A stretch of 64,000 nt of DNA from Isoetes taiwanensis (taxonomy: Eukaryota > Streptophyta > Lycopodiopsida > Isoetales > Isoetaceae): the NCBI GenBank assembly GCA_021234155.1, contig JAJEKV010000294.1:312001-376000 (forward strand). The letters run 5' to 3'. Below, one piece after another: positions 8,012-48,864 of this stretch. The position numbers were made by a program, and so were the translations under genes. The number at the start of each line of letters is the position of its first letter. Positions within the stretch are counted from its first letter, which is position 1. A model generated the notes under the pieces. That model was not told the origin of the DNA, made no database searches, and saw only the letters and a list, made by a program, of their open reading frames with translations.

Positions 8012-8120
8012 ATATATATATATATATATATATATATATATATATATATATATATATATATATATATATATATATATATATATATATATATATATATATA
8101 TATATATATATATATATATA
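8012..8120. repeat. (AT)n microsatellite, left border of the element array
   Basis: About 109 bp of pure AT repeat. It abuts the TC start of the Helitron at 8121, giving the A|TC junction expected of Helitron insertion. Its left flank shows no element end. Confidence 0.95.
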
Positions 8121-10887
8121 TCCTATATAATAAAATTATGTTGTATGTCTGTCTTAAATCTCGCCCTAGATCGGACGGCTTAGATCTAGGGCTAGATTGA
8201 TCGAATGGTCTGGATTGATGGGGATAATAGGTCGGGTTCTAACGGCTAACGCCACACCCCGATTGTTTCGAATTTTGGATTGATCGGGCCGAGTTGATTT
8301 AGGGGCTGGGTTTGAACGCCAAAGCTCAAAGCTCTTTGTTCTAGCATAGCCGAAATCGCATCTCTAAGAGGTCGTTCCACCTAACCGAGTGATCGTCATC
8401 GACCAAGCATGGCCTCCATACCTACTTCAACGAAGTTCTATAATTCTTTTTCTATGCGGATCACGATTTACATAGGTCAATTGAAACAAATTGTTTACGT
8501 GATTCATCTGCTATAACATGCCATGATTTACACAGGTTAGTTGAAGTGAAAGCTTATGGATTTACACAAGTCAGTTCATGATTTACATAGGTCAATTGAA
8601 GCAAAGCTTATGGAATTACACAGGCCATGAACTAGAGCGATCTTTCATCTCGCTCCTACAATTGTTCTTGGATTTCACCAAGGAGCCTAAAACACATATC
8701 AGGGTTTCTGTATCCAGGTAGTTTGAGTGTCTCATGTCATTGTCAACCAAGTAGAAGTCTCATGCAATCAGCTAGCTGACTATGTGCAACTTCATCCCTA
8801 GCATATCTTATATGCCTTGCAAATCTGTAAAGTCCTGCACTTTTACGTTTGCAGAACTCTATAATGAATCTGAGATCTCTGCAATCAGCCACATGTATTA
8901 AAGTAGAGGTAATTTCATATTGTTATACAGGTAAGGATACAACAGGGAACTTCATCCAATTACAGCCAAAATAGGTCTGCAACTTCCAAGTTGAAGAATA
9001 TGCAGTCGTTCAAAAGCATAGTGACCAACCAACCTCAGCCATGACCGGCCGTGATTAATTCAAGTGTGGCAAGGCAGATTAGATAATGGTCCTTCAAAGA
9101 AAACGTATCTTTGCTTTGTCGATTTCGGTGTCAAGAATCAGGCATCATCCCATCAACAATTGTTGCTGCCATGGTTTTGTTGTTGTTGCAGCCCCATGTG
9201 CCTTGCAAGTGTATAAATTGCAGAATTATGCAATCTGTTACCCCTGCTACATGCTCTTAAAATACTCATAAAGGCATGATGAAACAAATACAGGCCATTC
9301 CATATGTAGGCCATTCCATGTCCCATGTGAATTTGAGAAGAGATCCTTGACGAAAGATCCTCTACAATCATGGCATTCAGGTAAAGTTTTCTGGTCCAAT
9401 AAATGTTTTGGTTTTCATTGAGGCTGCCTGTAATATAGCCTTGACATTCATTTTCTGCGCAGGAATTGGACTTGATGTTCCAGCATCCCAATTTATTTTT
9501 AAGTTCTTCGCATCTTACCTACAATAAGTAATGTTTGATGTCTATGAGTTTATTAATCAGTTAGCATTATAATAGCATGAACAAGAAATTATTACTTTTT
9601 GATGCATTGCATTGACAGTGATGAAGGTATATACGTGTTTCTCATTACCAAAAAAGAAAAGTCCAATGATTTATTTTCATGACATGAACAGACATTCTTA
9701 TTACCAAGCTTCCATTTCAGACTTGACAGATAATGATGGTGGAACCAAAAAGAATCGAATGCATACATTAAGGCAACAAAATCAAGCATTGAAATGGTTC
9801 ATACTTTGATGTTCAAATCACAAATTGGCACTTTTTATTCTTCACATTGTGCATCCATGAGAAATGTTGTTCTACCTACATTTACGCAAAAGCAACACAA
9901 CCTCTGATTTAGACTTGGATTAACATTTTTATGTCTTATGCCTTAAGGGTTGTGAAGTTTAATAAGATGTAAAAGCTTATGTGCTATATTTTAGGTTTGT
10001 TGCTTAACAAAGGTGGGCATCAAGGTCAATTTCTTTAAGAGCAATTATTAAAATTCAAAAGCATTCAATGAATCCAATGCCACCATCATAGTTGTGTACT
10101 CAAGCTTTTCAAACTAGCAATGACCAAGAGACTGACTTCAAAGAAAATGGACATCAAAGAAGACTGCTTAACAAAGGTCGGCATCGAGGTCAATTTCTTT
10201 AAGAGCAATTACTAAAATTCAAAAGCATTCAACAAATTCAATGCCACCATCATAGTTGTGTACTCAAGCTTTTCAAACTAGCAATGACCAAGAGACTAAC
10301 TTCAAAGAAAATGGAAAAGAAAGAAAGCAAAATGAATCTAAATGAAAGGAAATCATATAAAAAACTAGACGACAAAAACTCTTTGAAAAAGAACCACCAA
10401 GGGCTAAATGCACAACCCTAGGGCACAAGAGGAAAATATTGACATCGGCCAAAAGCACACAGTATCATCATGTATATTATGAATAGTATTTGTTCATTGA
10501 CAGGTTTCCAACTTAGTCCAGCAATGTTGGACTTCATTTTCTTTACAAAACTAATGCTTTTGGGATTCTAGAAGACCTTTATGCTTAGCATGCCACTACA
10601 ATGTAATGGAATGATATCCATATTAATGCTTGGTAGCATGTAAAATTTATGACATTCGCATACAATTTATGACATATCATTATGCAAAGTCAATACATTC
10701 TTCAAACACAACCAGCCAATACAACAGAAGCAAAATTCTAAAGTCTTGGATGGAATAATGGCACAACATCCACTAACATCTGCACGAAGGGAAAGAGGGA
10801 GGGGTTGCAATACACCTCGGTGTCATTGCTGCCTTATCATTTGCAAGTTTCCAACTTATGCCCAGCAACGCTGGGCACCGTTACTAG
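8121..10887 (+). mobile_element. Non-autonomous Helitron H1 (2767 bp)
   Basis: Starts TCCTATATAATAAAATTATG directly after an (AT)n tract. Ends with a 7-bp stem hairpin GCCCAGC-AAC-GCTGGGC (10860-10876), then ACCGTTA and CTAG at 10884-10887, followed by host T of another AT tract. TC start, 3' hairpin a few bases before CTRR, insertion between A and T and no target duplication are the defining marks of Helitrons. No Rep/helicase is encoded. Interior cargo is unidentified; on the minus strand about 8700-8880 reads as an open stretch of some 50 codons. A 164-bp tandem duplication lies at 10002-10315. The same 3' end recurs at 48827-48854 and, diverged, at 40879-40908. Confidence 0.85.
10002..10315 (+). 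repeat. Tandem duplication, 164-bp unit, two copies
   Basis: Copy 1 begins GCTTAACAAAGGTGGGCATC at 10002 and copy 2 at 10166. They differ at only a few positions, so the duplication is recent relative to the Helitron that contains it. Confidence 0.9.
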
Positions 10888-10926
10888 TATATATATATAT
10901 ATATATATATATATATATTATATATA
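10888..10926. repeat. (AT)n tract between two elements
   Basis: About 39 bp of imperfect AT repeat joining the CTAG end of H1 to the TC start of the next element. Confidence 0.9.
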
Positions 10927-11939
10927 TCCCTTATATATATACAATTATATAAGCACCCCCCTTATATCTAGAGATTTTGGTGTCGCCGCCGCAGCCGTCC
11001 ATTTTTTGAGATCAACGGTTGAGATGAAAACATGCCAAACCACCCCAAGCACCCCCTTGGGTATAAAGATTGAGGTGTCACGACTTGACTTCAGCCATCG
11101 AAGGTGCAAGATCTACGGTTCGAGATGGGGCCATCTCATGATCCCCCTATTTGGGGCTTTTAATATGGGCCATTGGATTTTGCGATTGTGAGATCCAACG
11201 GCCGACGGCCCCGCCATTGTACCCCAAGCACCTTTGTTTATCTATTGCATTTAATGCTATGAGGTGAAGTGGCATTGGAGGTGTGTAAGTGGCAAAAAAA
11301 TCTAAGGTGGGAATTAAATGTAATCTTATTGCTTTGGGTTCGATGAGAGGTGTAGGTGTCTATAGAAATTAAATATTTGGTATACCGCACATTTATTGCT
11401 TCGAAGTCTACAATGGCTTCACTCTACAATGGCGGTGCAACAAGGCCAATCCGCAAAATGTTGAACCGGGTCCAGGGGTTAGTAAGATTTGGGATGCGCG
11501 GATTTGTATGGGAACCCTAAGCGGTGACCAGCTTTGCCTGCGGATTCGACCGGAAATAGGCTGGCTGGGTTTAGTATCGGCAAAATGGATTTCGGCTTGA
11601 CTTAGTGATTTTACTCGGTTTTAAAACTTAAGTCTTTCACATTAATGTTTATCTTTAGGAATGACTAACTAGGCTTACGTGTAAAACCGTCTATTGACAT
11701 TTTTTTCATTTTTGTTCTTTGCTCTTCGGTTCCATGGTACTTTGATATTCGAAAGTGTTCAGAAATGATTGCGCACACAATGCTTTTGTACAAATATCAA
11801 GTATTGGTTTAGGCGGGAGGTCTCTAGTTTAGACGCCAGGTTCTTCAAGAATTGTGGTTTATATCAACTACATCTTTTGTCTTGCTAATGTATAGTAGCT
11901 GAACTTCCAATGCGCATTGACAGTAAATGATCCGGACTC

Positions 11940-47520: not shown

Positions 47521-48563
47521 TTTAACCAGTTTCTGTTTGTGTCAGCAGTACAAAGTTTGCTTTCTTCTGAAAATCAAGCTGTGAAATTCTCTGTTTGTCT
47601 GTAAGACAACTTTTTAAGATTGCATAAAAGCATAGTTGCAGACCTAAGCACTAAAAACTCATGGTTGACTAAGAAGATGGAATGGCTCCTGCAAGCTACA
47701 AGCTCCATATCAAGGCTTCATCCACTAAGTCCTGGAAAATGGCAACATGTGCATTACTAAATTTGGATCGGATACAGATGTTTTGGTTTGGAAGATTAGT
47801 TTTATTACTGAATTGTGATATTCAAAATAAAGCTACAAAGCTAATATAAAAAGTTGTCCTTTGCGCTCTGCATCAAGTATAAAAAAGTTTGAGCATTTGT
47901 TTTATCTACCTTCAAATTTAGAACTTTGTTTAGTAGCTTGCACAATGTGGCACCCAAGAACTCCCAAGAACGTTTATGACCTACTTTAACATTTGCAGCA
48001 TAATATAATATGCAGAAGGCATGCCCTATTAGCAACTTCTACTTGAATGTGCTTTGAGTTTTAAATTTTATGCGGGTCCATTTGAATCCCAATCTTCTGC
48101 TACTACTTCAACACCAACAACATATATAATATGCAGAAGGCATGCCCTAATAGTAGCTTCTAATTGAATGTGATTTGAGTTTTAAGTTCTTATTTGGTTC
48201 CATTTGAATTCCAATCTTCTTGGCACTGTAAAAAGCGGAAAAAAAAAGAGGACTTGCAATCTCACATAGGAACATGGATATGCACGTAATGATCATGTTA
48301 AAGAGATCTTGAATGCATAGTTATGAATAAACAGATGTATCTATAAGGACTTCTTGGCATATCCATAGACATATGAAACATAAACAATTGTATGCTATGC
48401 ACATTTAACGTTGTCTCACGCTTGCCGACTTAAGTCATGGGATTATAGGTATGGGATTATGGGATAAAGACCTTTTAGAGTTTCATGATGTAGTCGCACA
48501 TTTGGCAACTTTAAGTTATGGGATGATGACCTTTTAGAAGTATAGGATAATATCTAGAGTGTC

Positions 48564-48743
48564 GATGTAATCTCACATTCAACAATGGAATGATGACCTT
48601 TTAGAAGTATGGGGTAATCTCTAGAGCGTCTTGCTAGGAAATGTTACAAAAGAGATGTAATCTCACATTCAACAATGGAATGATGACCTTTTAGAAGTAT
48701 GGGGTAATCTCTAGAGCGTCTTGCTAGGAAATGTTACAAAAGA
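48564..48743 (+). repeat. Tandem duplication, 90-bp unit
   Basis: Two nearly identical copies starting GATGTAATCTCACATTCAAC at 48564 and 48654, with a third degenerate start upstream. Confidence 0.9.
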
Positions 48744-48864
48744 AATGCAACTACAGTACAGTACACATGACATTTGTCAAGTTCCAAATGTTAGCACACA
48801 TGACATTTGTCAACTTCCAAATGTTAGCCCAGCAACGCTGGGCACTATTACTAGTCATATCATA

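Follow-up and report, generated by a model that had tools for sequence, protein, structure and literature searches.

We analysed a stretch of 64,000 nucleotides from the genome of the lycophyte Isoetes taiwanensis (assembly GCA_021234155.1, contig JAJEKV010000294.1, positions 312,001 to 376,000; hereafter the window), in which ten transposable elements stand end to end, none nested in another, between window positions 8120 and 48854. Seven of them belong to a family here called F, and three Helitron-like elements are called H. The joints of this train are (AT)n tracts in nine cases and a bare TA (38527-38528) in the tenth, and trains of this kind are a real phenomenon found at many places in the genome. 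An earlier note, made from the letters of the window alone, had described ten Helitron-like elements joined by AT, and its description was borne out at all ten junctions and all 14 F ends. We think it probable that F is a non-autonomous Helitron-like family whose insertions lie between A and T and strongly favour (AT)n, and that the train was built by independent insertions together with slippage of the tracts.

Architecture of the train

The seven F 5' ends, which open with TC (10927+, 28748-, 28813+, 37040-, 37091+, 38529+ and 40929+), and the seven F 3' ends, which close with CTTG (18768+, 18867-, 34043+, 34178-, 38526+, 40014+ and 45909+), were all present in the window and match up by order and orientation. 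AT in the train totals 735 bases, including the T that some tracts share with a TC start; with shared bases included, the tracts extend over 8012-8121, 10888-10927, 18769-18866, 28748-28813, 34044-34177, 37040-37091, 40015-40133, 40909-40929 and 45910-46002. The features are as follows, the joints being given without a strand and read directly from the sequence, and the basis of the other features following in brackets.

6900..8011, plus strand: left flank, a portion of dispersed repeat G broken off at the A(n)(AT)n site inside it (repeat search, junctions read)
8012..8121: (AT)55 tract between G and H1
8120..10887, plus strand: H1, canonical-type non-autonomous Helitron with TC, hairpin and CTAG (ends, hairpin z -4.26)
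10888..10926: AT tract with one interruption, between H1 3' and F1 5'
10927..18768, plus strand: F1, 7.8 kb, 3' end with GATAGTA (ends, recurrence at loci L049 and L057)
18769..18866: (TA)49 tract between F1 3' and F2 3', tail to tail
18867..28748, minus strand: F2, 9.9 kb (ends, 5' end recurring at L068)
28749..28812: (TA)n tract between F2 5' and F3 5', head to head
28813..34043, plus strand: F3, 5.2 kb (ends)
34044..34177: (TA)67 tract, its second repeat TG, between F3 3' and F4 3', tail to tail
34178..37040, minus strand: F4, 2.9 kb, holding a 31-bp-period minisatellite (ends)
37041..37090: (TA)n tract between F4 5' and F5 5', head to head
37091..38526, plus strand: F5, 1.4 kb (ends)
38527..38528: bare TA between F5 3' and F6 5', head to tail
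38529..40014, plus strand: F6, 1486 bp (both ends exact in 10 of the 29 other loci cut)
40015..40132: (TA)n tract between F6 3' and H2 5'
40133..40908, plus strand: H2, short GGAA-rich Helitron-like element with decayed 3' hairpin and TTAG end, 5' end uncertain (ends)
40909..40928: (TA)10 tract between H2 3' and F7 5'
40929..45909, plus strand: F7, 5.0 kb (ends)
45910..46001: (TA)46 tract between F7 3' and H3 5'
46002..48854, plus strand: H3, canonical-type Helitron, CTAG then T (ends, hairpin z -3.82, second locus copy without H3)
48855..54602, plus strand: right flank, the region of a thioredoxin-domain gene, also present in second copy on contig C1104 (sequence comparison, family scan)

Every tract is thus bounded by element ends save at the outer left edge, as the earlier note had it, and the left border of the tract at 8012 proved to be the internal AT site of G. 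Tandem Helitron arrays in plant centromeres are mentioned in PMC5148889, and the train could be taken for a rolling-circle concatemer, i.e. tandem Helitrons from one event. We regard this as highly improbable: the elements differ in length (1.4-9.9 kb among F) and mostly in content, save for parts common to F3-F6, two of the ten (F2 and F4) are on the minus strand, and AT stands between the elements in place of CTTG|TC joints.

A degenerate minisatellite with a 31-bp period (GAATCTAAGGGAATCT...) was observed in F3-F6, at window positions 33520-33972, 34865-36423, 37749-38462 and 39115-39901. It sits near the 3' end in F3, F5 and F6 and may drive internal length change.

Canonical Helitrons (Helitron1) are marked by a 5' TC that follows a host A, a CTRR 3' end, a hairpin about 10-12 nt before that end, and insertion between A and T without duplication. 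H1 and H3 showed all the canonical features tested (TC, hairpin, CTAG and an A|T site), their 3' ends consisting of an 8- or 7-bp perfect hairpin (GCCCAGC-AAC-GCTGGGC) and CTAG. The z scores above, taken over the last 50 nt, compare with +0.94 for H2, which is only partly canonical and whose 5' end is the least certain boundary of the train. In 5' alignment an F-like AT-rich start was seen about 20 bases inside H2 (window 40153-40185), and the true 5' end of H2 may lie here.

F ends and AT tracts across the genome

Searches covered the 1.66-Gb assembly (1110 contigs, the window included). F 5' ends comprise TC, a few variable bases and then an AT-rich start with TATATATA, and F 3' ends run from CATAGTA (GATAGTA in F1) to ACTTG, represented in the genome search by the pattern CATAGTAnAAnnACTTG, which misses ends like that of F1. 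The pattern occurred at 1646 places (819 + 827) and its reversed control at 37 (17 + 20). An F 3' end followed by (TA)6 was found at 691 places (345 + 346) and its reversed control at none, so the association goes beyond chance; ACTTG followed by (TA)14 was found at 853 places (410 + 443; control 0). Counted by eye among the matches listed, nine tail-to-tail pairs within 200 bases account for 18 of the latter.

The first 30 places of CATAGTAnAAnnACTTG in genome order, unselected, were used as a sample of F 3' flanks. The base after CTTG was T in all 30 and TA came next in 29, while in 22 the TA run was 17 bases or longer. Beyond the tract, 19 of the 30 matched an F end of the window by BLAST (E up to 0.01), 8 of them in tail-to-tail and 11 in tail-to-head arrangement; weak non-terminal matches at L050 and L059 were excluded from this count, which includes three weak cases (L045, L066 and L067) and takes junctions 40/41 and 61/62 each from both sides. 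The chance expectation of an F end within 260 bases either side is about 0.1%, based on approximately 3300 F ends (2 x 1646) in 1.66 Gb. F ends occur as neighbours across tracts in all three geometries, and no F was seen within the body of another F in the sample, L014 and L028 meeting another F at its TATATATA start. Ends of the longer window elements recurred as well, with the last 110 bases of F1 at L049 (100%), its 5' 220 bases at L057 (95%) and the 5' end of F2 at L068 (95%).

The habit was not common to both kinds of element. H 3' ends were found at 2926 genome places (control 0), the first 20 of which were sampled; T followed in 20 of 20, the longest TA run at a junction was 7 bases, and one H end (L112) had a 13-base AT run 5 bases off. 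A|T junctions are therefore common to F and H, and since long TA runs adjoined only the sampled F ends, the microsatellite habit belongs to F. H1 and H2 adjoin AT tracts in the window, so H elements are able to land there; the proposal that AT microsatellites serve as a landing site for Helitrons generally did not hold, as none of the 20 sampled H ends had a TA run longer than 7 bases.

Copies of F6 were sought using its first 172 bases as query, the best 40 of 521 candidates being scored (41 matches), and 30 F6-type loci were cut, of which one is the window itself. F6 was complete from base 1 to base 1486, at 92-96% identity, in 10 of the 29 other loci, and at L019, L020, L025 and L030 it stops exactly at 1486 and begins at base 7-9. 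The exact 3' end was present in 14 of the 29; the other 15 loci are truncated, rearranged or longer than the stretch cut. TC was intact with A in front in 24 of the 30 and gone in 6. The flanks of these copies were mostly unlike (other F 3' ends, F 5' ends head to head, G, or unrelated sequence), L023 and L033 being the same. Overall, the sampled loci showed A on the left, T on the right and mostly constant ends, as the earlier note had anticipated, and in the copies seen homology did not run on through the proposed ends, nor, for the most part, did the ends shift from copy to copy.

One locus, L037, had been taken for an F nested in an F; the outer element does not resume in its right flank, and it was reclassified as a truncated F fused at TA. 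Elsewhere, at L031/L103 (C1018:25131307), an F 5' end adjoins sequence occurring twice about 5 kb apart at 100% identity, resembling the long terminal repeats (LTRs) of a young retrotransposon that end at the F start. At L034 (C1052:7946556-7949716) an F6-type element by a (TA)n tract lies beside a truncated frame of 442 aa that is, by eye, PIF1-type-helicase-like.

The target itself could be followed through repeat G (window 6900-8011), for which the best 40 of 501 candidates were scored. Among the 39 non-self copies the junction was read in 34; four others were not cut, the best match stopping short of the junction. The site was uninterrupted in 13 of the 34, with A(n)(AT)n running into CTATC(C)TGAA and about 2 to 48 AT repeats, and 8 carried a short patch with an F-like 5' start. 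An F-type end stands at the site in three copies (L079, L091 and L096), and at L092 (AT)30 leads into an F4-like body that starts at its base 380, a 5'-truncated F. At L012, a further copy beyond these 34, a complete F6 lies between (TA)41 and (AT)36 with the two G halves outside; of all the copies this one gives the plainest sign of insertion into a microsatellite. With the G site found both occupied and uninterrupted, and with independent insertion in either orientation explaining the train, the idea of an AT microsatellite as a landing site is supported for F.

Trimming or fusion at TA tracts was seen in several F copies (L019, L020, L024/L025, L029, L030 and L037), and the flanks of the train are not from one recognisable site, with half of G on the left and a thioredoxin-domain gene on the right. 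Both observations favour an origin of trains by recombination between AT tracts of different loci, or by entry of circular copies into such a tract, a route that has been suggested for SaTar elements (discussed below). We nevertheless consider such an origin unlikely, since the flanks at L012 are the two halves of a G copy, and since crossovers anywhere in AT need no such exactness as that of the termini in 10 of the 29 F6 loci and of the 3' end in 14.

At the right edge, window 48855-54602 has a second (allelic or duplicated) copy on C1104, whose identity falls from 97% near the edge to 92% at the opposite end. The second copy reads TATAAATATA|TCATATC and the window CTAG|TCATATC, H3 being absent from the former; as the second copy has A|T at that point, H3 ends exactly at a would-be A|T target. 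AT at this site of the second copy amounts to TATATAAATATATCATAT, a short AT-rich patch and no long microsatellite. The tracts have therefore probably grown too, and the picture of one pre-existing tract merely split by arrivals is doubtful. The 333-bp left side of the second copy had high identity only to itself (next best 85% over part), and deletion or exchange between AT tracts could account for the mismatch between the left sides of the two locus copies.

These results bear on whether the AT tracts are mainly a product, with F landing at short TATA-like sites, after which gap repair or slippage would expand the target and the AT-rich terminus of F to (AT)50 or longer. Besides the short patch at the right edge and the amount of AT in the train, AT repeats number about 10 or fewer in 11 of the 13 G copies with an uninterrupted site, compared with 41 and 36 in L012 and 55 in the window, and a like expansion has been proposed for maize TAFT elements (PMC5907723). 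However, two G copies carry (AT)48 (L087) and (AT)33 (L099) and are element-free, so long tracts arise without insertion; L079 and L091 have an F end at the G site yet short tracts; and no long tract accompanies the sampled H ends in AT-rich flanks. We give this explanation a little less than even weight.

In the flank beyond the gene region, window 61302-63078 is a repeat that occurs several times in C1104:4301-36451 (81-95% identity), and an open frame at window 58520-58888 matches reverse transcriptase (PF00078) below threshold, with 25.9 bits versus a cut-off of 29.6.

The nature of F and the building of trains

F is Helitron-like and is not filed here as a canonical Helitron, since it departs from two defining features, CTRR and the 3' hairpin. 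A host A precedes the 5' TC in all seven window elements. Terminal inverted repeats (TIRs) exceeded the 95% shuffle level in none of the seven when the 150-bp ends were compared, nor did the asymmetric TIRs of Helitron2/Helentron, although a short or more internal repeat could escape a comparison over 150 bp. A target duplication can be recognised only outside (TA)n; at the three copies with an informative left flank (L011, L031 and L037) none of 8-11 bp was seen, though L031 abuts an LTR-like repeat and L037 a truncated F. From the 85 window open frames of at least 90 aa, 12 in F and one in H3 were scanned and had no Pfam family at E 0.05; one F1 frame weakly matched a hydrolase of solved structure (E 0.0002). 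There were 1813 RepHel candidates genome-wide, of which 150 were scored, and with RepHel genes this abundant a trans-acting source for F may exist. When Helraiser constructs were deprived of the hairpin or of the 3' end, some insertions showed CTTG next to T (PMC4778049), and an origin of F by way of a new 3' end is therefore plausible. According to the same source, CTTG ends are said to occur in maize Helitrons and Helraiser prefers AT-rich flanks (PMC4778049).

Microsatellite-targeting Mutator-like elements (MULEs) of the SaTar/MuTAnT/Micron kind share the habitat and form the same non-nested arrays joined by (TA)n (PMC5907723, PMC4486113, PMC8449440), and F might be such elements without their former TIRs. 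This seems improbable to us, given the absence of TIRs in all seven F, the failure to see a duplication at L011, L031 and L037 (a count weakened by the flanks of the last two), and a 5' TC and A|T junctions that suit Helitrons better.

On the reading we prefer, (AT)n would present A|T targets on either strand at intervals of two bases, and independent F insertions, by chance joined by a few ordinary H, would land by earlier ones in either orientation. As each insertion leaves AT on both sides, elements would come to align end to end without nesting, and replication slippage would afterwards lengthen or shorten the tracts. Transfer would presumably be of the rolling-circle type, with a RepHel-type protein supplied in trans; targeting would be the cause of the association of F with (TA)n, and the tracts would have grown.

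Several observations weigh against this reading. F ends in CTTG and not CTRR in all seven window elements, and a 3' hairpin was absent from the last 50 nt of all seven (z -0.66 to +1.29, with H1 and H3 as positive controls), so the argument for rolling-circle movement is carried by the 5' TC, the junctions between A and T and the missing TIRs. An autonomous F element was not found: among the matches listed no F codes for RepHel, and, by eye, no RepHel place came closer than 15 kb to an F place. AT was wholly absent at 9 of the 34 G junctions, and 11 of the 30 sampled F 3' ends had no recognised F end across the tract. No empty F site was recovered outside a microsatellite; for the solo F at L031, the one case tried, the joined flanks matched different repeats. 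Lastly, the G half missing at 8012 was found neither elsewhere in the window nor in the 40 kb that precede the second copy of the locus, where there was also no match to window 1-8011; with its left edge untidy in this way, the train as a whole may not represent insertions into one intact site.

A bolder version, which we put forward tentatively as the less likely one, holds that F is a distinct rolling-circle-type lineage that lost CTRR and the hairpin and whose target shifted from a single AT to (TA)n. Arrivals would add AT-rich ends, tracts would lengthen, and longer tracts would draw more arrivals, so that insertion and tract growth feed each other.

Relation to known systems

Non-nested arrays joined by (TA)n have been published for MULE-derived SaTar elements in guayule, rice, sorghum and citrus (PMC5907723) and for the Ac-mMITEs of pineapple (PMC8449440), and MuTAnT elements target TA (PMC4486113). 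As described there, SaTars and Ac-mMITEs resemble F in their end-to-end (TA)n joints, lack of nesting and many loci. They differ in being MULE-derived with TIRs, many families including members with 9-10 bp duplications, whereas F has no TIR and has Helitron-like ends; non-autonomous SaTars are shorter than 2 kb and F reaches 9.9 kb.

Among Helitrons, two were found inserted adjacent in maize (PMC2267711), and a review states that Helitrons tend to insert close to other Helitrons (PMC12477314); non-canonical fungal Helitrons (PMC5148889) and an active wheat Helitron (Xuan/Feng, PMC13286980) have also been described. F shares the 5' TC and A|T insertion with canonical plant Helitrons (Helitron1) such as those of maize and wheat (PMC2267711, PMC13286980), but ends in CTTG, has no 3' hairpin and lies mostly in (TA)n. 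The CTTG of Helraiser is an alternative end in some of the reported insertions (PMC4778049), while that of F is a fixed, family-wide terminus.

Both F as a family and the form of its ends look new. In the open-licence literature, no account of Helitron-like trains in (AT)n was found among the matches listed; the architecture is known from another transposon class, and its occurrence with kilobase-scale, TIR-less Helitron-like elements looks like a new variation on it. Tandem Helitron arrays have reportedly been described in plant centromeres by Xiong et al. in 2016, and Coates et al. in 2010 reportedly described a Helitron-like superfamily in (GAAA)n microsatellites of moths, which, going by its title, is also microsatellite-associated, in another repeat and another kingdom.

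That the same architecture is built with TIR-less Helitron-like elements suggests that the microsatellite, and not one transposase type, sets it. The presence of microsatellite-loving F and ordinary H elements in one genome provides a natural contrast on target choice. If insertion and tract growth do feed each other, the landing pads would propagate themselves and shape the AT microsatellites of the genome. Trains of kilobase-sized elements near genes are a source of structural difference between copies, as at the gene to the right of this train.

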